A stretch of 41,363 nt of DNA from an uncultured Erysipelotrichaceae bacterium (lineage in GTDB: Bacteria; Bacillota_I; Bacilli_A; Erysipelotrichales; Erysipelotrichaceae). The notes under the pieces were generated by a model. That model had not been told where the DNA came from. It saw nothing but the letters and a program-made list of their open reading frames with translations, and ran no database searches. Every line of letters begins with the position of its first letter. The stretch's first letter is position 1. Positions 8,674-28,541 of this stretch are shown piece after piece. The DNA lies in the NCBI GenBank assembly GCA_944327135.1, contig CALVGQ010000117.1:1-41363 (forward strand), read 5' to 3'. Both the position numbers and the translations under genes were made by a program.

Positions 8674-10572
8674 GTGAAAGCGCAAAATACATCCCTGTTT
8701 TATCATCAAAAAGAGAAGTTTATGGTTTCAAAAAGTGATGCCGGAATTTTTGCTGGTAGTTTTTTTCTGGGACTGCTTTCTTCTGAAAGCATGGCGTTAT
8801 GTTTTACGCTGATCATCATGACAGCGTTTTATCATCGTGATGGGAATAAAACCTGGATTTCCGGAGGAGCGTTTTTGATCGGATCCTTTTTTATTTCTTT
8901 TTGGAATTTCTACTTTCATGCCGTTTTGCTTTGTATTTTTGCTTTGATGCTGGCTTTTGTCCGTCTTCTGCGGGGGAATCTTTATTTCTTTTTTCCGATC
9001 ATGACCGCATTGACGACCCTGATTCATGCGTTGGTGCTTCAGCAGGATTTTCTGATTGCTTTTCAGGCGATGCTTTTGGGATATGTGCTTTGTATCTTTT
9101 CAATCAAGCATATGAATGTTTCTGCGGATTCATTCCGATTAAATGGATTAATTTTCGGAATTCTGCTGCTTTCCTGCGGAAAGATAGCAGCTCTTCTACC
9201 ATCGCCTTTGGAAACATGGGTGATTGTTGGGATTTATGCTTTGCTGGCTCAGACGATTGATATGGGTTCGTTGGTTTTGCTGCTGATGGCAGGCAGCCGC
9301 TTGTTTTCAATGGGAGAGTATGGCTTTAGCTGGATCATTGCGATGATTCTGGTGAATAGCATGAAGGAATGCGGAAAAGGAGCGCAGTTGTTTGGTTTTG
9401 CCTTGCCGATGGTCTTGGCTTCCCAGCGGTTTGATATTTTGGCTATCGCGATCCTTTTGTTTCTGCTGACGGCGGCGCCGCTTTTTGGCCCGCTTCAGGA
9501 GCTGACCCAGACCGATCATGATCTGCAGTATGAGCGTTTGCAGCTGGCCAGTCAGAAACGGCTGCTGGAACATCAGCTGCTGCAGTTTTCTCAGATCTTC
9601 CATTCGATCGCTCATTTTTTTGAAAAGAGCCATGAGCCGGAAATGGAATTTGTTCAAGGAATGGCGCAGTCTTTAGAATTGCTTTCGATGCAGCTGAAGC
9701 AATCGGCCACCACGGCTCAGGAGGAGCAGGTTCGGATCTATCATCTTTTAAAAGGCTATCATTTTCCTGTTACGCGGGTACAGGTGAGAGAAACAGAGAA
9801 GGGCCAAAAACAGATTGAGCTGTTTTTGGAAGAGTGCCGCCGTCAGGATGTGGAAGAGGTGATCCTTCCTTTGCTGCAGGTCCTGATCGACCGCAATCTG
9901 AAAGTAGTCAGCCGCTATCGGCCGCAGTTATTGGGATCATCTGTTCGGATAGAGCTTTGCGGCACAATTCCGTATCAATTGAAGACCCAGCAGTTTCAAA
10001 AACGCAAGATGGAAGAGGCCAACGGGGATACCTGCAGCGTCTTTCGGTTTCGCCACAGTACGATCTGTACTTTGAGCGATGGAATGGGAGCTGGCGAGGA
10101 AGCAGCGCGATCCTCATCATTCATTACTCAGTTGACCCAGCGTCTTTTTGCGGCCGGAATTCCGGTCGAAATGGCAGTGCAGTCGATGAACGCCTTGCTG
10201 CGTCTGCATCAGGAGGAATCGTTCGCTACCTTGGATTTGTTTGTTTTGGATGGTTTGGGGCGGCAGGCGTATTTATCCAAATCAGGAGCCTGTGCAACCT
10301 TTCTTTTGCGTAATCATCAGGTTTTGAAGATCCAAGGGGAATCATTGCCGCTTGGCATCATACGGCAGGTGGCCCCAGATTGTTATCAGATTGAGTGTTA
10401 TCCTGGGGATGTCTTTGTGATGTTCAGCGATGGAATTGCAGAGGAAAAACTGGAAAGCTGGCTTCTTTCGGCCGATCGCACAGTGCTGGCTGAGGAGCTA
10501 AAAAAGCATTTGGAAACAATGGAAGCGGAGGATGATGTGACGGTGCTTCTGGCAGAGATCGATTCTCGCTAG
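8674..10572 (+). CDS. spoIIE: Stage II sporulation protein E (membrane PP2C phosphatase)
   Basis: SpoIIE dephosphorylates SpoIIAA to release sigma-F in the forespore and interacts with FtsZ at the asymmetric septum. The N-terminal region (to about residue 270) has about ten hydrophobic helices; a helical linker (275-440) follows, then a PP2C domain with the metal motifs SDGMGAGEEAARSS (about 468-481) and MFSDGIAE (near 590) and the central ATLDLFVLDG. At 632 residues it is shorter than the 827 of B. subtilis, mainly in the central region. GTG 8674 is placed 6 nt from GAGGTG; GTG 8665 is the alternative. Its position before tilS-hpt-ftsH reproduces a widely conserved order. Confidence 0.92.
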   Translation: MKAQNTSLFYHQKEKFMVSKSDAGIFAGSFFLGLLSSESMALCFTLIIMTAFYHRDGNKTWISGGAFLIGSFFISFWNFYFHAVLLCIFALMLAFVRLLRGNLYFFFPIMTALTTLIHALVLQQDFLIAFQAMLLGYVLCIFSIKHMNVSADSFRLNGLIFGILLLSCGKIAALLPSPLETWVIVGIYALLAQTIDMGSLVLLLMAGSRLFSMGEYGFSWIIAMILVNSMKECGKGAQLFGFALPMVLASQRFDILAIAILLFLLTAAPLFGPLQELTQTDHDLQYERLQLASQKRLLEHQLLQFSQIFHSIAHFFEKSHEPEMEFVQGMAQSLELLSMQLKQSATTAQEEQVRIYHLLKGYHFPVTRVQVRETEKGQKQIELFLEECRRQDVEEVILPLLQVLIDRNLKVVSRYRPQLLGSSVRIELCGTIPYQLKTQQFQKRKMEEANGDTCSVFRFRHSTICTLSDGMGAGEEAARSSSFITQLTQRLFAAGIPVEMAVQSMNALLRLHQEESFATLDLFVLDGLGRQAYLSKSGACATFLLRNHQVLKIQGESLPLGIIRQVAPDCYQIECYPGDVFVMFSDGIAEEKLESWLLSADRTVLAEELKKHLETMEAEDDVTVLLAEIDSR

Positions 10573-17449: not shown

Positions 17450-19153
17450 ATGAAGAAAACCAATGGAATTACACGTCGCGATTTTTTAAAGGGCAGTGCG
17501 GCCGGTGCGCTTAGCGTTGCTGCTATGGGACTGCTGGGGGCTTGTTCTTCAAAGGAAGGCGCTGGATCTGACAATGATTCGGCAGTGGAATCAACGATTT
17601 CAGAAACGCCTGCTTGGCTGGGACAGGAACCGGAAACTGGAGAAATTGCAGAAACGATTGAAACTGAGGTCCTGGTGGTAGGATCAGGAACGGCCGGTTG
17701 GCCAGCAGCATTAAGTGCGGCCGAAAATGGCGCTAAAGTTCTGATGATCGAACGCTATGCTTATCTCAATAAGCCAAAGGACGATATTGGGGCAATCAAT
17801 TCCAAGCTCCAGCAGGAAACCATTAAAAATTATCCATATCTGGCAATCGATAAGACCAAGCTTTTAAAAGATGCTGTTCGTTATGCCAATGGCTACATCG
17901 ATTCGGATTTGGTGAAACTGTGGATGGAGGAATCCGGGGAAACAGTAGACTGGTATACCGAGATTTTGGAGCGAAAAGGGGATTTCAAGATGTGGCATGA
18001 AGGCGGCATCGGAAATGTTGACGGTGGGGCTCGCGATGCGGCCTATGCAACAGGACACAGTCCGGAAGCATTGACAGAGCGCACGACCGCTGAGGTTTTA
18101 AAAGAATATGCGGATGAGCTGGGAGTTGAAACGATGCTGGAGACAACCCTGATTAAATTGATCAAGACGGAAGGACGGGTCAGTGGCATCATTGCGGAGA
18201 GTGCGGAAAAAGGACGGATTCAGATCAATGCCTCCAAAGGCGTGATCCTTTGTACGGGAGGATATAGCGGCAATGCGGAAATGTTGAAAAGCCTTCAGCC
18301 GGAAACCGTTCGCATCAGCGCCACCGGAATCAACATGACTTCGGCGGATGATGGATCTGGAATCAAGGCGGCTCTTTGGGCAGGAGCAGACATGGATCAG
18401 ATCCACAGTACCTGCAGCTTTAACCGGGCGGCCGTCGATCCGAAAAATGGAAAAGGCGGTGATCCGGGGGTTTGGTATTGGTTTGGAGAGCAGCCATTTA
18501 TGAAGGTCAATACCAAGGGCGTTCGCTTCTGCAATGAATCAGGGCCGTATGATTATATGCTGCATAGCGCTTCCTTGCAGCCGAATCACGTTTATTGTCA
18601 GATTTTTGATGCGAACATGAAGGAACATGTCAAGCAGATGGAGATGGTTGGCTGCTGTCGGTTGTATCCGTTTGATAATGGAGCGCCAAGCAACATGGAT
18701 ATTGATACGGTTGTGGATGGGATGAATGCCGGGTTGATTGAAAGCGGCCATCTGGTGGTTGCCGATACGCTGGAGGAATTGGCAGACGGATTGAATCTTC
18801 CAAAGGAAGCTTTCTTGGCACAGGTCGAACGCTACAACCATTACGCTGAAACCGGTGTGGATGAAGAATATGGAAAAGTGGCGTATCGGATCACGCCTAT
18901 TGATACCCCGCCGTTTTATGGAGCCAGAACCTGTGCGTGGCTGCTTTCCACACTGGATGGAATCCGAATCGATACCAACATGAATGCCATTGACGAAAAC
19001 AATGAGCCGATTCCGGGGCTGTATGTCTGCGGCGATGCTTCTGGAGGATTCTTTGGCAACACGTATTTTAATTTGGTGACAGGAATGGCCTGCGGTCGTT
19101 CAATGACCTTCGGCCGGCGCGCTGGCCGGATCGCAGCAACTACGGCACTTTAA
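17450..19153 (+). CDS. Tat-exported FAD-dependent reductase, lipoprotein type
   Basis: A 567-residue flavoprotein of the fumarate reductase/3-ketosteroid dehydrogenase superfamily. The N-terminus has a perfect twin-arginine motif TRRDFLKG (8-15), a weakly hydrophobic h-region and a lipobox LGAC with Cys32, so it is probably exported folded, with FAD, and then lipid-anchored outside. The FAD Rossmann motif is VLVVGSGTAG (74-83), and the C-terminal FAD motif is PGLYVCGDASGGFFG. The H-x-T-M-G-G and N-R-L-G-G motifs of true fumarate reductases are replaced (STLDGI; NTYFNLVTG), so the substrate differs. No heme or FMN-binding domain is fused. Likely role: anaerobic reduction of an external organic substrate sensed by the adjacent MerR. 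Confidence 0.87.
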   Translation: MKKTNGITRRDFLKGSAAGALSVAAMGLLGACSSKEGAGSDNDSAVESTISETPAWLGQEPETGEIAETIETEVLVVGSGTAGWPAALSAAENGAKVLMIERYAYLNKPKDDIGAINSKLQQETIKNYPYLAIDKTKLLKDAVRYANGYIDSDLVKLWMEESGETVDWYTEILERKGDFKMWHEGGIGNVDGGARDAAYATGHSPEALTERTTAEVLKEYADELGVETMLETTLIKLIKTEGRVSGIIAESAEKGRIQINASKGVILCTGGYSGNAEMLKSLQPETVRISATGINMTSADDGSGIKAALWAGADMDQIHSTCSFNRAAVDPKNGKGGDPGVWYWFGEQPFMKVNTKGVRFCNESGPYDYMLHSASLQPNHVYCQIFDANMKEHVKQMEMVGCCRLYPFDNGAPSNMDIDTVVDGMNAGLIESGHLVVADTLEELADGLNLPKEAFLAQVERYNHYAETGVDEEYGKVAYRITPIDTPPFYGARTCAWLLSTLDGIRIDTNMNAIDENNEPIPGLYVCGDASGGFFGNTYFNLVTGMACGRSMTFGRRAGRIAATTAL

Positions 19154-19168
19154 TTGATTATAAATAGA

Positions 19169-19196
19169 AGACAGGCAGGACTGCTTGTCTTTTTTT
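19169..19196 (+). terminator. Rho-independent terminator after the flavoprotein gene
   Basis: AGACAGGCAG (19169-19178) pairs with CTGCTTGTCT (19181-19190), followed by seven T residues. Confidence 0.82.
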
Positions 19197-19242
19197 GTAG
19201 TAAAGAAAAAAAGAATTTGAACAGGACAGCAATATTTTTTTC

Positions 19243-19271
19243 TTGCATTGCCTTCAATTTCAGTGTAAATT
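19243..19271 (+). promoter_or_regulatory. Promoter of the DAHP synthase leader
   Basis: TTGCAT (19243-19248), 17 bp, TAAATT (19266-19271). Transcription would start near 19278, at the ribosome site of the leader peptide. Confidence 0.5.
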
Positions 19272-19291
19272 AATTACAGGAGCTGATCCTT

Positions 19292-19330
19292 GTGAAACTG
19301 AAAACAGGACGTTTTTATTATTATGAATAA
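19292..19330 (+). CDS. Phe/Tyr leader peptide MKLKTGRFYYYE
   Basis: A 12-codon frame starting at GTG, with AGGAG (19278-19282) 9 nt upstream, ends in Phe-Tyr-Tyr-Tyr-Glu-stop. Directly after the stop codon comes an 11-bp hairpin and then a terminator, before the gene for DAHP synthase, the entry step to Tyr and Phe synthesis. A run of codons for the pathway end product ahead of a terminator is the classical attenuation design. Seen: the frame, ribosome site and hairpins. Inferred: that ribosome stalling at scarce Tyr-tRNA or Phe-tRNA allows read-through. Confidence 0.68.
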   Translation: MKLKTGRFYYYE

Positions 19331-19412
19331 CTCAATATAACCCAAGAAGACTTGGTCATTTTGTGTTATATTGAGAAAAGCCGACATCAATGAAAATTGA
19401 TGTTTTTATTTT
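19331..19412 (+). promoter_or_regulatory. Transcription attenuator ahead of aroF (two hairpins)
   Basis: First hairpin: CTCAATATAAC (19331-19341) pairs perfectly with GTTATATTGAG (19365-19375) and contains a small inner stem CCAAG/CTTGG (342-346/351-355 of 19 kb). Second: ACATCAAT (19384-19391), GAAA loop, ATTGATGT (19396-19403), then a U tract to 19412, a standard terminator. A ribosome stalled on the Phe-Tyr-Tyr-Tyr codons would cover the first arm at 19331. The freed middle segment CATTTTGTGT (19357-19366), or the ATTGA of the 3' arm, can pair with the terminator's 5' arm and so act as antiterminator. No T-box sequence is present. Confidence 0.65.
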
Positions 19413-19430
19413 ATTAAGGAGGAAAAGGAA

Positions 19431-20447
19431 ATGATTTTAACCGTCAAAAAAAATTCAGACAAGCTCTCGGTGGACCGTTTGATCGATCAGCTTTCGGCCC
19501 GCGGATTGGAGATCAATTACAGCGAAGGAGAAAATTTTATTGTGCTGGGGCTGGTGGGGGATACCACAGCGTTGGATGTCAACTGGTTGAAAAGCTTTGA
19601 TTTTGTCGAAGAGGTCACACGGGTTGCAGCACCTTATAAAAAAGCAAATCGAATGTTTCATCCGGAAGACAGCGTTATCATGGTTCAAGATATCCCGGTG
19701 GGGGGAAAGGAACGCATTGTCGTGATTGGAGGCCCTTGTGCAGTGGAAAGCGAAGAGCAGATCCAACGGATTGCCAAGGAGGTCAGTGAGGCCGGAGCAG
19801 TGATGCTGCGCGGCGGTGCTTACAAGCCAAGAACCAGCCCATATACCTTTCAAGGTTTAGGCAGCAAGGGCATTCGCATGATGGAAAAGGCCGGCAAGGA
19901 AAATGGCCTTCCGATCGTTTCTGAACTGATGAGCGCAGACCATTTAGAGGAATTTGTGCAGCATGTCGATTTGATCCAGATCGGGGCAAGAAACATGCAG
20001 AATTTTGATTTGTTGAAAGCGGTTGGAAAAGTCAATAAACCGATTTTATTAAAACGCGGGATGGCCAATACAATTGAAGAATGGATCATGTCAGCGGAAT
20101 ATATTCTGGCAAGCGGAAATCCCAATGTCATCCTGTGTGAACGGGGAATCCGGACCTTTGAAAAATATACCCGCAATACCTTGGATCTGAGCGTTATTCC
20201 GTTGATCAAGCAGAAAACACATCTGCCGATTATCATCGACCCCAGCCATGCTACTGGGGATTGGAGCCTGGTTGAATCGGTCAGCTTGGCGGCAATTGCT
20301 GCAGGGGCAGACGGCCTGATTATTGAAGTGCATGATCATCCGGAATGGGCCTTGAGTGATGGAGCCCAGAGCTTAAAACCGGAGAAATTTAAACGGGTAA
20401 TTGAGAAAGGACGAAAAATTGCAGAAGTGATTGGAAGAAAATTGTAA
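19431..20447 (+). CDS. aroF: 3-deoxy-7-phosphoheptulonate (DAHP) synthase, type I-beta with regulatory domain
   Basis: This enzyme condenses phosphoenolpyruvate and erythrose-4-phosphate, the first step of the shikimate pathway. The 338-residue protein has an N-terminal ferredoxin-like domain (about 1-70), which in the Thermotoga type mediates Tyr/Phe feedback inhibition, followed by the TIM barrel. Conserved active-site stretches are GGPCAVES, RGGAYKPRTSPY, LLKRGMANTIEEW, ERGIRTFEKYTRNTLDLS and DPSHATGDW; the metal ligands Cys, His, Glu and Asp are all kept. AAGGAGG precedes the ATG. No other shikimate genes are nearby, so control relies on its own leader. Confidence 0.94.
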   Translation: MILTVKKNSDKLSVDRLIDQLSARGLEINYSEGENFIVLGLVGDTTALDVNWLKSFDFVEEVTRVAAPYKKANRMFHPEDSVIMVQDIPVGGKERIVVIGGPCAVESEEQIQRIAKEVSEAGAVMLRGGAYKPRTSPYTFQGLGSKGIRMMEKAGKENGLPIVSELMSADHLEEFVQHVDLIQIGARNMQNFDLLKAVGKVNKPILLKRGMANTIEEWIMSAEYILASGNPNVILCERGIRTFEKYTRNTLDLSVIPLIKQKTHLPIIIDPSHATGDWSLVESVSLAAIAAGADGLIIEVHDHPEWALSDGAQSLKPEKFKRVIEKGRKIAEVIGRKL

Positions 20448-20475
20448 GAATTTGGACTTTATCTGGACTATTTTG

Positions 20476-20504
20476 TTGTAAGTCATGGGGATTTCATGTA
20501 AAAT
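20476..20504 (+). promoter_or_regulatory. Promoter of the tat operon
   Basis: TTGTAA (20476-20481), 17 bp, TAAAAT (20499-20504), 21 bp before the first ATG. No terminator is visible between aroF and this promoter, so read-through from aroF is possible. Confidence 0.55.
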
Positions 20505-20524
20505 AAAAAGAAGAAGGTGAAAAA

Positions 20525-21031
20525 ATGAAAATCGGAACGCTGGAACTGGTCGTGATCTTCGTGGTTGCCTTGATTGTTCTTGGACCTGAAAAGATGCCGT
20601 ATTATACCAAAAAACTTGGACAGGCACTGGGGCAGCTGAAGGGTTACAGCAACAAGCTGGCCGAGGATATTCGAGAAAATATCGTCGATCCGCTGGATGA
20701 AACGACCGCTCCGCTAAAGGACGCTGTTGAGCCGCTGACTTCTTTGAAAAAAGAGATAGAACAGCCGATCAAAGAGGTGGAGAAATCAATCAAGAGCGTT
20801 GGCAAACCGAAGCCTTCCGTAAAGGAAGCGCCGCAGGCGGAAAGCACGAATGAGATGCCGGAAAATTCGGCAAGTCAGCAAAACGGTGTGGTGGCCGCCT
20901 TAAAAGAAAAGGGGTACAGCGACGCTCAGATCCAGGAAATCCTGGCGCTGACTGAGAATAAACAAAAGACTGAAACTACTCAGGAAGCAGTACAAAATGA
21001 AAGTGCAGAAGAAAGTAAAAAAGGAGAATAG
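20525..21031 (+). CDS. tatB: TatB-like component of the twin-arginine translocase
   Basis: A 168-residue protein with an N-terminal membrane helix (about 5-19), the hinge LGPEKMP (19-25), an amphipathic helix (26-48), and a long, charged, probably disordered tail ending in a UBA-like ALKEKGYSDAQIQEIL segment. LGP with a charged pair resembles the TatB hinge (LGPxRLP) rather than the FG hinge of TatA. The long tail is also a TatB trait. Bacillota usually have only TatA and TatC, so the call of a distinct TatB rests on sequence pattern and the presence of a separate short TatA gene next to it. Confidence 0.75.
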   Translation: MKIGTLELVVIFVVALIVLGPEKMPYYTKKLGQALGQLKGYSNKLAEDIRENIVDPLDETTAPLKDAVEPLTSLKKEIEQPIKEVEKSIKSVGKPKPSVKEAPQAESTNEMPENSASQQNGVVAALKEKGYSDAQIQEILALTENKQKTETTQEAVQNESAEESKKGE

Positions 21032-21034
21032 GAT

Positions 21035-21211
21035 ATGTTTGGAAAATTGGGAACAACGGAAATTATTGTCATCTTGTTGATTGTTTTGTTGATTTTTGGT
21101 CCGACTCAGCTGCCGAAATTGAGCAAAATGTTTGGAAAATCCATCAAGGGATTTAAAGATGGATTGGAAGAAACAAGCAAGGAAGATAAAGACGATTCTG
21201 ATAAAGCATAA
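21035..21211 (+). CDS. tatA: Twin-arginine translocase pore subunit TatA (58 residues)
   Basis: A short gene beginning MFGKLGTTEIIVILLIVL: membrane helix with a polar Glu at position 9, the hinge IFGPTQLPKL (FGP at 21-23), an amphipathic helix KMFGKSIKGFKDGLEE, and an acidic tail ending DDSDKA. These are the standard TatA features. It starts 4 nt after the TatB-like gene stop with AAGGAG upstream, and tatC follows after 2 nt. Many TatA copies form the transport pore for folded proteins. Confidence 0.92.
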   Translation: MFGKLGTTEIIVILLIVLLIFGPTQLPKLSKMFGKSIKGFKDGLEETSKEDKDDSDKA

Positions 21212-21213
21212 CT

Positions 21214-21978
21214 ATGGCAAAGAAAAAGGGTAACGCGGAAGATCAAGATGTGATGCGTGTGACTGACCATCTAAAAGAGCTCCGCAACCGGATCGTGGTG
21301 GTGGTGGTCGCTTTTTTTGCGTCGATCATTATTGCCTTCAATTACTCGCAGGGAATTGTGGATTACTTGATCAGTATTGCGTCGGACATGGGCTATGTCT
21401 TTGTTTATTTATCGCCGTCAGAACTGTTCATGCAATATATTAAGGTTGCAGTTATTGCGGGAATCGTGATTATTGTTCCGGTAATTTTTTATGAAGTATG
21501 GGCCTTTATTCGCCCAGGACTAAAGTCCAATGAGAATTTCATTGTCTTTATATCCATGGTAATGGGACTCTCTTTCTTTGTGCTGGGCGCGTTGTTTGCT
21601 TTGTTTGTGGTCATTCCGTTCATGCTTCAGTTTTATTTCAACATCAATCAAACCAGTGAGATCATGGCGTCGATCTCGGTGGAAAATTACGTCAGTTTTC
21701 TGATGACGAATTTTCTTTGCTTTGGTGCAATTTTTGAGTTGCCGGTGGTTACGACGCTGTTGACTCAGTTGGGACTGATTCGCTATGAATGGCTGGTCAA
21801 ACTGCGGAAACTTGTGATCGTGATCATCTTTATTCTGGCTGCCATTATTACTCCTCCGGATGTGATTTCACAGATGCTTTGTGCCGTGCCGATGTGCTTG
21901 CTTTTTGAATTGAGCCTGCAGATCAGCCGAGTAATTGGGGTTCGCAAGAAAAAGCGCAGAGCTGCTGAGGAAGAATAG
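21214..21978 (+). CDS. tatC: Twin-arginine translocase receptor TatC
   Basis: A 254-residue protein with six membrane helices that recognises the twin-arginine signal. Conserved features: the N-terminal HLKELRNRI, SPSELFMQYIKV in the first outer loop, FIRPGLKSNE in the first cytoplasmic loop, FELPVV in helix 4 and ITPPDVISQ before helix 6. The C-terminus is basic then acidic. The gene starts only 2 nt after tatA without its own strong ribosome site, so it is probably translated by coupling. A likely substrate, the Tat lipoprotein flavoenzyme, is encoded at 17.5-19.2 kb. Confidence 0.95.
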   Translation: MAKKKGNAEDQDVMRVTDHLKELRNRIVVVVVAFFASIIIAFNYSQGIVDYLISIASDMGYVFVYLSPSELFMQYIKVAVIAGIVIIVPVIFYEVWAFIRPGLKSNENFIVFISMVMGLSFFVLGALFALFVVIPFMLQFYFNINQTSEIMASISVENYVSFLMTNFLCFGAIFELPVVTTLLTQLGLIRYEWLVKLRKLVIVIIFILAAIITPPDVISQMLCAVPMCLLFELSLQISRVIGVRKKKRRAAEEE

Positions 21979-23498: not shown

Positions 23499-23546
23499 AA
23501 AAAAAAACGATTCTATTTGCTTTAAAAGCAGTGGAATCGGTTTTTT
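23499..23546. terminator. Bidirectional terminator between convergent genes
   Basis: CGATTC (23508-23513) pairs with GAATCG (23534-23539), with an inner TGCTTT/AAAGCA stem. T runs follow on the plus strand (23541-23546), and an A run precedes it (23499-23507) that gives U residues on the minus strand. Confidence 0.78.
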
Positions 23547-26109
23547 ATTTTTCCATTTGTTTTTTTAATTCTGCCAAAGGATGCGGCTTGCTTGGCTGGA
23601 GTGGTCCGGATTGTTTTCGGGCTGACTCGATCCGCTTTTTCAGTTCACGGGCTGAAAGCCGCAGAGCCCCCTGACCAAGGATGATGCGCTGTTCCATGCC
23701 ATCAGAAGTGGCTACCGTTACCTGATATTCTTTGGCTAAATGATGGGTCGTTTTTTCAATATAGCTGTCTGCAGTTTCAGAAGTTTTCGTATAAACCTGA
23801 TAAAAGTTGCCTTGTTGAATGATCTTTCCAGGGTTGTTGGGCACTTTCCAGGCATCAAAGACAACAATCAAAATCCCGTCTGTTCGGCCAAGATAATCAG
23901 AAAGGATCCGAATCAGTTCCTCTCGAGCGGCAAAAAGATCGGTTTGTGCTAAAAGACTTAAGTTTTCCCAGGAATAGATCATGTTGTAGCCATCCACCAA
24001 AAGACAGGCCGTCTTTTTTTCGACGGGTTTGACTTCAATGTGTTCCGGCAATTCTTTTTTAATAGCTATGGGGCGAGGGGCAGGGCGCTCTTTTCGTTTA
24101 TAGGTTCGCTCCATTACTGCATTGAGTTCTTCCTCACTGACCTTGCTTTGACGAATTGGGGATTCCTGGACTTTTTTTTCTTTTTGCCAAAGCCGTTCCA
24201 GATGCATGTGTTCATACACGTCTTGAGCTTTGACTAAAAAACCGGCACCGTGCGCGCAGAAAATCGAATCGGCCGAATGTTCTGGATCGCGCTGGGGATC
24301 ATATCCGCTTTCAGCAACCACGGCTTCCTGATCGCTGCATGGCTGAAAACCGGAAAAAAACCAGCTGAGCTGTCCCTGACCGCGTGTGTAGGCCAGAACT
24401 TCGCTTTGATAATTCTGCATCATGCGCACTGCCGCGGTGCCGACGATCCGACTTTTTCCTTTTTCCAGTGTTTGGAGAGTTGTTTCAGCATGCATCCGTT
24501 CCAGATCATGCAGTGCCCGGCTTAAAAATTCACTGGGAAGAACCAGCTCAAAATGATAGATCGGCTCCAGCAAAAGGGAACGGGTAAAAGTCAGACCATG
24601 GCGCAAGGCACGCAAGGCAGCTTCTCGAAAATCGGAAGATTGGGTGTGCTTTAAATGCGCTTTGCCGCCTAGCAGAGTAATTCTCATGTCGGTTAACGGG
24701 GCATTGATTAAAACACCGGTCAGCTCATTTTGATCCAAACAGTCCAGAATGATGCGCTGCCATTTGGCTTCCAGCATTTCTTCCGGACAGTCAGAATCAA
24801 TGATCAATCCGCTTCCCCGCTCTAAGGGCGTTAGTAAAAGATGGACCTCTGCATAATGGCGCAGCGGCTCATAATGACCGACGCCCTCGACTGGTTCCAG
24901 TATCGTTTCCTTGTAGCTGATTTTTCCCTGATCAAAAGTGACGCTGAGCTGAAAGCGATCAAGGATCATCTGCTGTAAAATTTCAATTTGAATTTTCCCC
25001 ATGACCGCGACGCGGATATCGGAAAAAGAAGGAAGATACTGCAAGTGCAGCTCAGGATTTTCTTCTTCTAATTGTTTTAGCTGACGGAAGACTTGAAAGC
25101 GGTCTTTGTTTGGCGGCAGGATCATTCGATAATCCAGACAGGGAGCCAGCTGAGGTGGAAAATGCCGGGCATCAATTCCTAACGAATCATGGATCTGAAG
25201 TTTTTGGGGCCCTTTTAAGCAGCAGACCGTACCGGCTTTGGCTTCTTGAACGAGGATAAATTTATTCCCAGAATAAATTCGGATCTGATCCACCTTTTCC
25301 TCTTGAAGAAGGCTTTTGGCGCGCAGCGTACCGCCGGTAATTTTTACATGGGTAAGCCGATTTCCCTGGGGATCCCGGCTGATCTTGAAAACATGGGCAC
25401 CAAATTGAGCAGGATAGCTGGGGGCTAGCGTGAATTGATCCAGACCATCTAACAGCTCCCGGATTCCTTCCTGTTTTAACGCTGAGCCAAAAAAGCAAGG
25501 GAACAGCTGGCGCTGCGCAATAGCTTTGGCCAAGGCAGGATCAGGGATCCTGCCCTCTGTCAGATACATCTCCAGCAAGGCTGGACTGCATAGTGCGACG
25601 TTTTCTTCTCGCTGAAGGATCGTTTCGATATCGAGACAGTTTTCACTGAGATTGTTTCTTAGCTCCTCAAGAAGTTCAGCCTGACTGCGATAGGTCTGAT
25701 CCATTTTATTAATGAAAAGAAAAACAGGGATCTGATAGCTTTCCAATAGCTTCCAAATCGTTCGGGTATGCGGCTGGATGCCATCTTGAGCACTAATCAG
25801 CAGGACAGCATAATCCAGAATCTGCAGGGTCCGTTCCATTTCTGCGGAAAAATCGACATGACCAGGGGTATCAATCAAAGTAAAGTGGGTCGTATGCCAA
25901 TCAAAGAGGGCTTGTTTTGAAAGGATCGTAATCCCGCGCTGACGTTCCTGAAGATCATAATCCAGAAAGGTATTTTGATGATCGACACGCCCTAGTGTGC
26001 GGATGACCGCGGCTTCTTTTAGCAGGGCTTCGGAAAGCGTCGTTTTGCCGGCATCGACATGGGCCAGCAGCGCCATGCAGCAGTTTTTTTTCTCTAAGCT
26101 TTCGTTCAC
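23545..26109 (-). CDS. Ribosome-protection-like translational GTPase fused to a Rae1/YacP-type NYN ribonuclease domain
   Basis: An 854-residue protein. Residues 1-680 resemble EF-G/TetM: G1 AHVDAGKTT (16-24), G2 RGIT, G3 DTPGH, G4 NKMD, G5 GSAL, then beta-barrel domain II and the EF-G-like domains III-V. Where TetM has the drug-displacing loop GLYYSPVSTPADF, this protein reads GKAHLKHTQSSDF, so the Pro and Val that displace tetracycline are missing. After a basic, Pro-rich linker (about 650-698), residues 699-830 match Rae1/YacP closely: LLVDGYNMI, VVFDAWK, ETADSYIEK, VATSDGMEQ and GQGALRLSARELKK, all acidic active-site positions kept. Rae1 of B. subtilis cuts mRNA in the ribosomal A site (established). 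The start is GTG 26109 behind AAGGAGGGATCTT; the longer frame to 26316 has no ribosome site. Inference: a ribosome-rescue or mRNA-cutting factor. Confidence 0.85.
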   Translation of the reverse strand: MNESLEKKNCCMALLAHVDAGKTTLSEALLKEAAVIRTLGRVDHQNTFLDYDLQERQRGITILSKQALFDWHTTHFTLIDTPGHVDFSAEMERTLQILDYAVLLISAQDGIQPHTRTIWKLLESYQIPVFLFINKMDQTYRSQAELLEELRNNLSENCLDIETILQREENVALCSPALLEMYLTEGRIPDPALAKAIAQRQLFPCFFGSALKQEGIRELLDGLDQFTLAPSYPAQFGAHVFKISRDPQGNRLTHVKITGGTLRAKSLLQEEKVDQIRIYSGNKFILVQEAKAGTVCCLKGPQKLQIHDSLGIDARHFPPQLAPCLDYRMILPPNKDRFQVFRQLKQLEEENPELHLQYLPSFSDIRVAVMGKIQIEILQQMILDRFQLSVTFDQGKISYKETILEPVEGVGHYEPLRHYAEVHLLLTPLERGSGLIIDSDCPEEMLEAKWQRIILDCLDQNELTGVLINAPLTDMRITLLGGKAHLKHTQSSDFREAALRALRHGLTFTRSLLLEPIYHFELVLPSEFLSRALHDLERMHAETTLQTLEKGKSRIVGTAAVRMMQNYQSEVLAYTRGQGQLSWFFSGFQPCSDQEAVVAESGYDPQRDPEHSADSIFCAHGAGFLVKAQDVYEHMHLERLWQKEKKVQESPIRQSKVSEEELNAVMERTYKRKERPAPRPIAIKKELPEHIEVKPVEKKTACLLVDGYNMIYSWENLSLLAQTDLFAAREELIRILSDYLGRTDGILIVVFDAWKVPNNPGKIIQQGNFYQVYTKTSETADSYIEKTTHHLAKEYQVTVATSDGMEQRIILGQGALRLSARELKKRIESARKQSGPLQPSKPHPLAELKKQMEK

Positions 26110-26137
26110 AAGATCCCTCCTTTTTAAAGATTGGAGA

Positions 26138-26166
26138 ATTATATCACAGATGAGCTCGTTCGTCGA
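26138..26166 (-). promoter_or_regulatory. Extended -10 promoter for the GTPase-NYN gene
   Basis: On the minus strand TCGACG (26166-26161), 17 bp, TATAAT (26143-26138) with TGA before it, forming the extended -10 TGATATAAT. The GTG start is 28 bp downstream. Confidence 0.6.
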
Positions 26167-26200
26167 GTGCAATGAGGAAAAAATAAGAAGCGGTGAAAAT

Positions 26201-26237
26201 AAAAAGATTCCCTGTTTTGGTAGGCAAAACAGGGAAT
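26201..26237 (-). terminator. Rho-independent terminator of the ybhJ-like gene
   Basis: ATTCCCTGTTTTG (26207-26219) pairs perfectly with CAAAACAGGGAAT (26225-26237). On the minus strand a U-rich tract follows. It separates ybhJ from the GTPase-NYN promoter. Confidence 0.85.
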
Positions 26238-26267
26238 TTACGAATAGGTCCAAGCAGTACGGGAGAA

Positions 26268-28541
26268 TTATGACTGCTTTTTTTGACGATTGAAATTGAT
26301 CAGACAGCCGCTGCAAAGAATTTCTTTTTCTTCCTCGCTAAGCGGATCGATGGAGAGGGTAATCGGTTTGATTTCATTTTTAGTGAGAACATAAGCTGGG
26401 ATGGAAGCAAGATCTTCCTGCAGATGCTGACGAATATAAGGAACAAAAAGGTAATCTCCTTCTTCAAAAGAAGGTTCTTCTTTTAGCAGGAAAGGAATCA
26501 TCCCCCAGTTGATCAGATTGGAACGGTAACGCTTGGTAGCATATTCTTGTGCAATGTTGGAACTGCCCAGAAGGACGCGCTGACAGGAAGCTGCTTGTTC
26601 GCGGGCGCTTCCGTCCCCCGGTTTGATGGCATAGATCGTACTGGAAAGATTCACCGTGCTTTCGTCTAATTGTTCAAAATTAGGCAGGGTGCGAATCCGG
26701 TCCAGGATTTGATTGATTTCAGATGAAGGCTGTCCGGCTTTTCGGGCTTTTTCCTCTGCCATGACCGCTTTGGCTTTGGCCACATAAGTAGGAACCCGTC
26801 GGCTTAATGTGAATTCGGCTAGACCAATCGGATTGGATCGATAAGAGCTGGTTTCTCCAGAAGGAATCAGTTCATCAGTGGTCGTGACCGGATCATGGAT
26901 CATCGCGCAGACCTTTATCAGCATGTGGTCATTTAACGCAGGCAGCTCTGGCCAGTCTTTGATGTTCGGACCGCAGATCAAGGATGTTTCTTTGTGACCT
27001 TGATTGAATCCCTGATAGATCCGATGCGCATAGACCGTAGGATCAAAATGATAGGTTGGACAAACAAAATCATAGCCGAGCTCGTCGGCTGCGGTGATTC
27101 GTCCGCCATGGGCAGCCGTTGCGGCAATCGATCGCGCATCCATCAAGGCGACACAGGCCAGCTGGCCTTTTCCAGGATTGGAGCCCTCCCGGTTTGGAAA
27201 GTTTCGGGTCGTATGACGAATCGATAAAGCCCCGTGAGCAGGGGTTTCACCGGCGCCAAAACAAGGACCGCAGATCGCTGTGCGAACTGTTGCACCGGCA
27301 GTGATCAGCTTTTCAAGTGCCTGTTTTCGAAGCAGATCGAGCATGACGGCCTGACTGCTTGGATAGACGCTTAGACTGAAGGCATCTTTTCCTGTGCTTT
27401 TTCCATCAAGCAGATAAGCGGCTTCCATAAGATTCGAGTAGGTGCCTCCGGCACAGCCGGCAATCGTTCCCTGATCGGCATAAAGGGCGCCATCGTGGAT
27501 CTTTTCTTGAAGATGAAGCTGCAAATCCGGGTTTTTGATCAATTTTTTAGCATTCTCTTCTACCTGATGCAGAATTTCGTGGAGATTGGCATTCAGCTCA
27601 CGGATCTCGAAGCCATTGCTTGGATGGAAAGGCAATGCGATCATGCTGTGAATGGTTGACAGATCGATATAAATGCAGCCGTCATAATAAGCAATCTTTT
27701 CTGGTTCCAGCAATTGGAAATCATCTTCCCGGCCATGCAGGGCCAGATATTGGCGGGTATCGTCATCTGTTTGCCAGATGGAAGACAAACAGGTCGTCTC
27801 AGTGGTCATGACATCGATACCATTTCGATAGTCAGTGGATAAGGCAGAGACGCCCGGACCGACGAATTCCATGACTTTGTTTTTTACGTAGCCTTTTTCA
27901 AAGACAGCGCGAATCAAGGCAATCGAAATGTCCTGCGGTCCAATGCCGGGACGAGGTTTTCCGTCCAGATAGACACAGACGACTTCCGGGTAAGGATTAT
28001 CCCAGGTCTGATTTAGGATCTGTTTAACCAGCTCGCCGCCGCCTTCTCCTACGGCCATGGTTCCTAAGGCTCCATAACGGGTATGGGAATCTGAACCGAG
28101 GATCATTTTTCCGCCGCCGGCATAGGCTTCACGCATATACTGGTGGATGACTCCTATATGGGGCGGGACATAAATTCCGCCATATTTTTTGCAGGCGCTC
28201 AGCCCAAAGACGTGATCATCTTCATTGATCGTTCCGCCCACTGCCCCCAAACTATTGTGGCAGCAGGTCAAGATGTAAGGAACCGGAAACTGTTCTAGAC
28301 CGGAAGCCCGAGCCGTTTGAATGATGCCAACATAAGTCAGATCGTGGCTGGTAATGGCATCAAATCGAATTTTGAGTTGATCTGGATCGCCGCTGGTGTT
28401 GTGCGCTTGAAGAATCCGGTAAGCGATCGTGCCTTTTTTGGCTTCACTACGGCTGATTGGGATTTGATTTGTTGCTTCCGGTTCAGCAATCAGCTGTTTC
28501 CCATGAATCAGGTAGACGCCGCTCTCATAAAGTTTTATCAT
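26268..28541 (-). CDS. ybhJ: Aconitase-family hydratase, YbhJ-like
   Basis: A 757-residue aconitase-superfamily protein, close in length to E. coli YbhJ (753). Substrate and cluster motifs include [45 protein letters not shown] (two of three 4Fe-4S Cys), [15 protein letters not shown] and, near the C-terminus, [28 protein letters not shown], the swivel-domain serine loop. It should hydrate or dehydrate a tricarboxylic or related acid, but not necessarily citrate. ATG 28541 with AAAGGAG at 8 nt is preferred to the longer frame. It is divergent from a PrpF-family gene and near a LysR regulator, the same trio as ybhJ-ybhH-ybhD of E. coli. The physiological substrate is unknown. Confidence 0.85.

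Follow-up and report, generated by a model that had tools for sequence, protein, structure and literature searches.

How is transcription of a DAHP synthase gene (aroF) controlled when it has to pass an intrinsic terminator lying just behind a short reading frame with consecutive tyrosine codons? The question is raised by the window analyzed here, a stretch of 41,363 nucleotides (contig CALVGQ010000117.1) from a genome that is Erysipelotrichaceae-like, near Holdemania, and carries two aroF genes. A preliminary description of the locus had read it as a leader-peptide attenuator that senses Phe and Tyr. Control of termination by a ribosome requires that the ribosome follow RNA polymerase closely, and whether it does so in many Bacillota is in doubt (runaway transcription).

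Organization of the aroF leader

The aroF gene occupies 19431–20447 of the plus strand, with its ATG at 19431 and a Shine-Dalgarno sequence (AAGGAGG) at 19416–19422. Its product, a T. maritima-type DAHP synthase, matches NF006421/TIGR01361 above cut-off as well as PF18152 and PF00793, and has an N-terminal ferredoxin-like regulatory domain, recognized as an FXD domain; the nearest solved structures are 1rzm and 3pg9. The coding sequence of the upstream flavoprotein stops at 19153 and is followed by a terminator of its own at 19166–19193 of the plus strand (12-pair stem, T-rich tail), which sets the aroF transcription unit apart from it. The flavoprotein that adjoins aroF on this side carries a twin-arginine signal (RRDFLK), and genes for a TatA/B-like protein and TatC lie directly downstream of aroF (17450–21978). 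Elsewhere in the window, the minus strand at 23545–26316 encodes a translation-factor-like GTPase that resembles ribosomal protection proteins and apparently has extra C-terminal sequence.

Between the two genes, all on the plus strand, lie the parts of a leader. A predicted promoter (TTGCAT, a 17-nt spacer and TAAATT) spans 19243–19271, with the first hexamer at 19243–19248 and the second hexamer at 19266–19271; the pattern TTGC[AT]T-17-TA[AC]A[CT]T aligns at the matching place in leaders L001–L004. Transcription from this promoter would begin near 19278, at the ribosome site itself (AGGAG, 19278–19282). The 12-codon peptide with a good ribosome site that had been described is there: AGGAG stands 9 nt ahead of a GTG start, and the frame (19292–19330; GTG AAA CTG AAA ACA GGA CGT TTT TAT TAT TAT GAA TAA) encodes MKLKTGRFYYYE*; the frames of relatives start at the same position with ATG or TTG. 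Its three Tyr codons (19316–19324), where orthologs have four or five, are the proposed sensor.

Both described hairpins are likewise present, and folding of the leader gives z = −4.2, with none of 200 shuffles equally stable. Hairpin 1 (19331–19375), supported by folding and by comparison, starts at the first base 3′ of the leader stop codon and pairs the arms CTCAATATAAC (19331–19341) and GTTATATTGAG (19365–19375) over 11 bp. Within it, at 19342–19362, an inner hairpin (CCAAG-AAGA-CTTGG) is followed by the U-rich TCATTTT; an arrangement of CC..GG and then a U-rich stretch recurs in A/B leaders and would be a candidate pause site for RNA polymerase. A 7-nt spacer (19376–19382) leads to the intrinsic terminator at 19383–19412, GACATCAAT-GAAA-ATTGATGTT with a U-tract, in which a 9-bp stem and a GAAA loop fold at −9.2 kcal/mol; alignment shows that relatives keep this terminator before aroF.

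Conservation of the tyrosine run and of the two-hairpin layout

The aroF lineage was compared in seven leaders (window, L001–L004, L120, and L122). The four nearest orthologs of the window aroF are 74–76% identical to it and two more come from the Holdemania-containing genus group; their six leaders (MLNFFSSYYYYQ, MILKHAYYYYR, MLKIKLNHSYYYYR, MLKIKLNHSYYYY, MLKFNLNHSYYYYYR, and MNTIVITRSYYYYR) are each followed by a hairpin and then a terminator, and the alignment extends to the promoter, the ribosome site, the place of the Tyr run and the terminator. In one Holdemania-related genome (G171:C28, C30; L120, L121), aroF is partly masked as N, so that frames appear fused or cut. The Tyr run stands next to the stop codon in 7/7 leaders, and the six others share the form Tyr4-5(-X)-stop with differing peptides and compensated stems. 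Since L001 and L002 exchange TAT and TAC, and the remaining peptide differs between subgroups, it is the amino acid Tyr that is kept. The proposal of a Tyr-reading leader peptide before a DAHP synthase gene is thereby borne out, since the Tyr codons persist amid changes in the remaining peptide and in the hairpin sequences, and loss of the frame or of its Tyr codons among relatives, which would have spoken against it, is seen in none of the six. Phe fared otherwise: only the window has it beside the Tyr run among leaders of this lineage, and it is not conserved in this leader, so its part in the window sensor is not upheld. A scan of both strands of 80 aroF loci (0.46 Mb) and of other loci for a ribosome site, a short frame with at least three Tyr codons near its stop and a T-tract returned only aroF/aroB leaders and the stray L036; the combination in the window leader is not chance.

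The same layout (25 leaders) is found ahead of aroB or aro operons across Erysipelotrichaceae, including aroB-aroC-aroF-aroA-tyrA operons of other genera and aroE operons; aroB upstream regions were inspected in roughly 90 genomes of the family, and in some relatives these had no recognizable leader. A covariance model of the window-type leader gave 19 matches in 268 genomes, 18 of which precede aroF, aroB or aroE operons, the exception (L266) having an unrelated gene downstream. Most positions of hairpin 1 show several standard pair types among 26 leaders. The spacing is narrow throughout the 25: from the stop to the start of hairpin 1 there are 0–2 nt (mean 0.5), and to the end of the U-rich stretch mostly 28–38 nt, and the gap from hairpin 1 to the terminator measures 4–10 nt (mean 6.2, s.d. 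1.7). Across the 25, the last aromatic codon lies one codon upstream of the stop, except in L004, where it directly adjoins the stop. Comparison of sequences establishes in this way the frame, the Tyr run, the covariation of hairpin 1 and the fixed spacing from the stop codon through hairpin 1 to the terminator. In each of three genomes in which two leaders were compared, one is dominated by Tyr and the other mixes Phe and Tyr (FYYY vs. YYFTF in the window's own genome, YYYY vs. FYFYF in G175, YFYYY vs. FYFYF in G204), suggesting a division of labor between isozymes or operons.

Because all six other leaders of the lineage keep the Tyr run and 25 leaders of the family share the layout, the window leader is very likely a Tyr-reading, ribosome-mediated attenuator; with a discount for its mechanism, an attenuator with a Tyr sensor is still probable.

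A proposed link between ribosome position and termination

A more explicit model comes from a sister architecture. The second aro operon of the window's genome (G000:C75) has the leader MKQLVCALHTSYYFTFTN ahead of aroB, followed by a five-segment chain (sequence and covariance model; positions 8951–9105 of that contig, minus strand; L138, 9049–9105). Covariance model R1 finds this type in about 48 genomes of Erysipelotrichaceae, and the own-genome copy, which was outside its training, matches with E 2.4e-5; the sister-type leader is a family-wide RNA element without an Rfam entry. Past the stop codon come GGGCARU...AGAUAAUUGCCC (segments 1:2), GUUU, GGCAUUAUCU (segment 3) and the terminator CCAUAUGGAUAAUGCCAUAUGG (4:5), and segment 3 has alternative partners, either segment 2 or the terminator's loop and 5′ arm. 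Duplex z-scores mark the neighbor pairings (1:2, −2.8; 2:3, −2.6; 3:4, −1.7; 4:5, −5.2) and detect no complementarity between non-neighboring segments. Paired cells reach 93% for 2:3, 90% for 3:4 and 99.5% for 4:5, against 25–48% when slid; since double changes are few, conservation of pairing is clearer than covariation for 2:3 and 3:4. Nearly all leaders of alignment A3 have AGATAR or GGATAR as their last codon and stop, even where the amino acid switches between Arg and Gly; the conservation may thus act on the RNA, where UAUC of segment 3 is a possible partner.

Folding of the sister type, taken at the point where all but the final 5 nt of the terminator have emerged, gives P(terminator) of 0.10 with a ribosome stalled on the aromatic codons vs. 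0.41–0.51 with a ribosome at the stop (L140, L142, L194, L204, L211, L213, L217, and L222, whose segments were misplaced by automatic helix assignment, were left out of this folding and of the C-type spacing). A stall at the aromatic codons would leave segment 1 free, so that 1:2 forms, segment 3 takes the terminator loop and transcription reads through; a ribosome at the stop would hide segment 1, so that 2:3 forms and the terminator folds. The folding model thus predicts that a stall means antitermination and the stop position termination.

In 20 representative leaders of the window type, every pair of segments was scored for duplex energy against shuffles. Two pairs alone stood out, that of the hairpin 1 arms (mean z −4.3) and that of the terminator arms (−2.3); the 3′ arm of hairpin 1 against the terminator arm gave a mean z of +0.48 and no conserved pairing, and a search of 26 leaders (7 close, 19 distant) for a conserved antiterminator between the hairpins gave a mean duplex z of about 0 relative to shuffles. 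A loop–terminator pseudoknot and a U-run/A-run pairing were rejected from the same segment matrix (mean z about −0.1). Sequence comparison hence finds the window type without a conserved antiterminator. Among the features expected of an attenuator, the window leader has the ribosome site, the short frame with tandem Tyr codons and the intrinsic terminator before the gene; a conserved competing antiterminator is lacking in the window type and present in the sister type.

The edge of a ribosome lies about 12 nt beyond the first base of its A-site and was set at 12 nt here. Of the 11 nt in the 5′ arm of hairpin 1, a ribosome whose A-site holds the last Tyr codon would thus cover 4 and a ribosome at the stop 10, which makes the textbook stall scheme awkward; the classical stall geometry does not fit the window leader. 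Constrained folding in competing states, a check named in the preliminary description, gives the complete window terminator P ≥0.95 in each ribosome state, with no change induced by stalling. With 3–4 nt of the terminator 3′ arm yet to be exposed, P drops from 0.94 to 0.32 for a ribosome at the stop but not for one on Tyr.

The reading that we put forward, tentatively and at somewhat less than even weight, is a two-hairpin attenuator without an antiterminator that acts by proximity, in which a ribosome at the stop codon would permit termination and one on the Tyr codons would prevent it. RNA polymerase would start near 19278, transcribe the leader frame and probably pause in the loop of hairpin 1 with a ribosome behind it. 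When Tyr is scarce, the ribosome would linger at the Tyr codons, short of hairpin 1, which could then fold, and aroF would be read through; with ample Tyr, the ribosome would move on to the stop, cover the 5′ arm and hold hairpin 1 open, the terminator would fold alone and transcription would end. Both the response to Tyr and the pausing of RNA polymerase are inferences. The window leader probably has the polarity of the sister type, given that the position of the codons, the anchoring of the stop codon and the target genes are common to both; the energy models stand as a counterpoint, predicting no switch in that sense for the window itself. If the leader is a Tyr-reading attenuator, the chances that hairpin 1 has this role and marks the ON state seem to us evenly balanced. 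The narrow spacing of hairpin 1 and terminator suggests that hairpin 1 sterically hinders the terminator from folding where the RNA leaves the polymerase, and blockage of termination by crowding at 4–10 nt is the most speculative element of the model. If true, it would represent a new mode of ribosome-controlled termination common to many Erysipelotrichaceae.

Other readings have to be weighed against this proximity model. The antiterminator of the preliminary description can be drawn in the window, with a Tyr-stalled ribosome freeing the 3′ part of hairpin 1 (TCATTTTGTGTT) to pair with the terminator 5′ arm (GACATCAATGA), and pairings of equivalent effect are predicted in L003, L004, L120, and L122, with one of 10 bp in L002. 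The pairing does not, however, exceed shuffled sequence in the 7 close or the 19 distant leaders, the stalled ribosome hides too little of the 5′ arm (the 4/11 nt given above), and the segment would be freed solely by the stop-codon position, which gives the wrong sign; a classical attenuator therefore seems unlikely. Timing could instead decide, if the polymerase pauses in the hairpin 1 loop and the outcome depends on when the ribosome arrives at the stop: with Tyr short, a late ribosome would sit at the stop as the polymerase passes the terminator and would free the 3′ arm of hairpin 1 to serve as a transient antiterminator, and with Tyr plentiful the ribosome would have left the stop before that passage. 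Such a switch would draw on the candidate pause element at its near-fixed distance (U-run mostly 28–38 nt past the stop) and on the predicted weakening of early terminator folding by a stop-codon ribosome in most leaders of the window's lineage, a weakening that is not predicted for most distant leaders; it also demands finely tuned times and has no conserved antiterminator to work with, and we hold it to be improbable.

Control by a T-box, a riboswitch or an RNA-binding protein, with the Tyr-rich frame incidental, would be in keeping with the 13 T-boxes that score above cut-off elsewhere in the window's genome, which served as a positive control and show direct tRNA sensing to be in use in the lineage as well. 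The leader itself matches no Rfam family: T-box RF00230 (Stem I/specifier loop, antiterminator) is absent, and Phe_leader RF01859 and other Rfam leaders reach at best 16.4 bits, on the opposite strand, against a gathering threshold of 55. Nor were Rfam families found in 13 sister loci, and pheA of the window's genome has no leader. An RNA of about 150 nt that starts on its ribosome site leaves little room for such structures, and orthologs conserve the Tyr codons as codons, so this explanation is very improbable. Still harder to credit is a constitutive terminator behind a chance frame with no regulation at all, against which stand the conservation of the Tyr run, the specificity of the scan, the covariation of hairpin 1, the covariance-model matches and the fixed geometry.

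Relation to known attenuation systems

Aromatic amino acid synthesis in a family of gut Bacillota thus seems to be governed by ribosome-controlled termination, which comes in two architectures and exists beside T-boxes; because the whole family seems to rely on it, the coupling of transcription and translation becomes directly testable there. The inverted geometry, with control codons upstream of segment 1 and the stop codon on it, challenges the textbook scheme, and one type without a conserved antiterminator challenges it further.

That scheme derives from the leader-peptide attenuators of enterobacteria (trp, phe, and his), in which the control codons lie in segment 1 and a stall hides it, as in trp. 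There, as proposed for the window, the position of a ribosome on codons for the pathway's own amino acid selects terminator or read-through; in the window, by contrast, the control codons lie upstream of segment 1 and the stop codon abuts it, and the conserved 2:3 antiterminator is missing from the window type. The T-box riboswitch (RF00230), a sensor of tRNA aminoacylation common in Bacillota and in the window's genome, shares that putative input with the window leader, which differs in having no T-box structure and a translated frame as its sensor.

The preliminary remark that ribosome-stalling control is rarely described in Bacillota is fair, but leader-peptide attenuators reading His had already been predicted there: in Bacillus (PMC2965389, PMC9413887), before hisS/hisZ paralogs of bacilli (PMC2965389), and in C. 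difficile, B. cereus and six Erysipelotrichales (PMC9413887). A Tyr leader of the Erysipelotrichaceae-type group did not turn up in a literature search that had most subscription journals outside its reach. The probable Tyr leader-peptide attenuator before aroF belongs to a known class, whose predicted His examples in the same order predate it. They share with the window a run of pathway codons, a hairpin just past the leader and a terminator, and differ in reading His instead of Tyr and in having five segments with an antiterminator where the window has two hairpins. By eye, His leaders of the sister family (L300–L319, upstream of his genes, HHHH) have a five-segment chain like that of the second aro leader, and GCCC[AG]TTTT follows hairpin 1:2 as in the aromatic leaders. 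Because their last His codon typically stands 3–4 codons ahead of the stop, a stall would leave segment 1 free here too, and the sequences suggest that His and aromatic leaders are one ancestral design, retargeted by codon change. Closest in target gene is the uORFC-13-1 motif, known before aroF in Acholeplasma and environmental sequences only (PMC8632094); compared by its published description, it resembles the window in its uORF with promoter, ribosome site, terminator before aroF and a further paired element, and differs in that its uORF has a U-run encoding at least one Phe.
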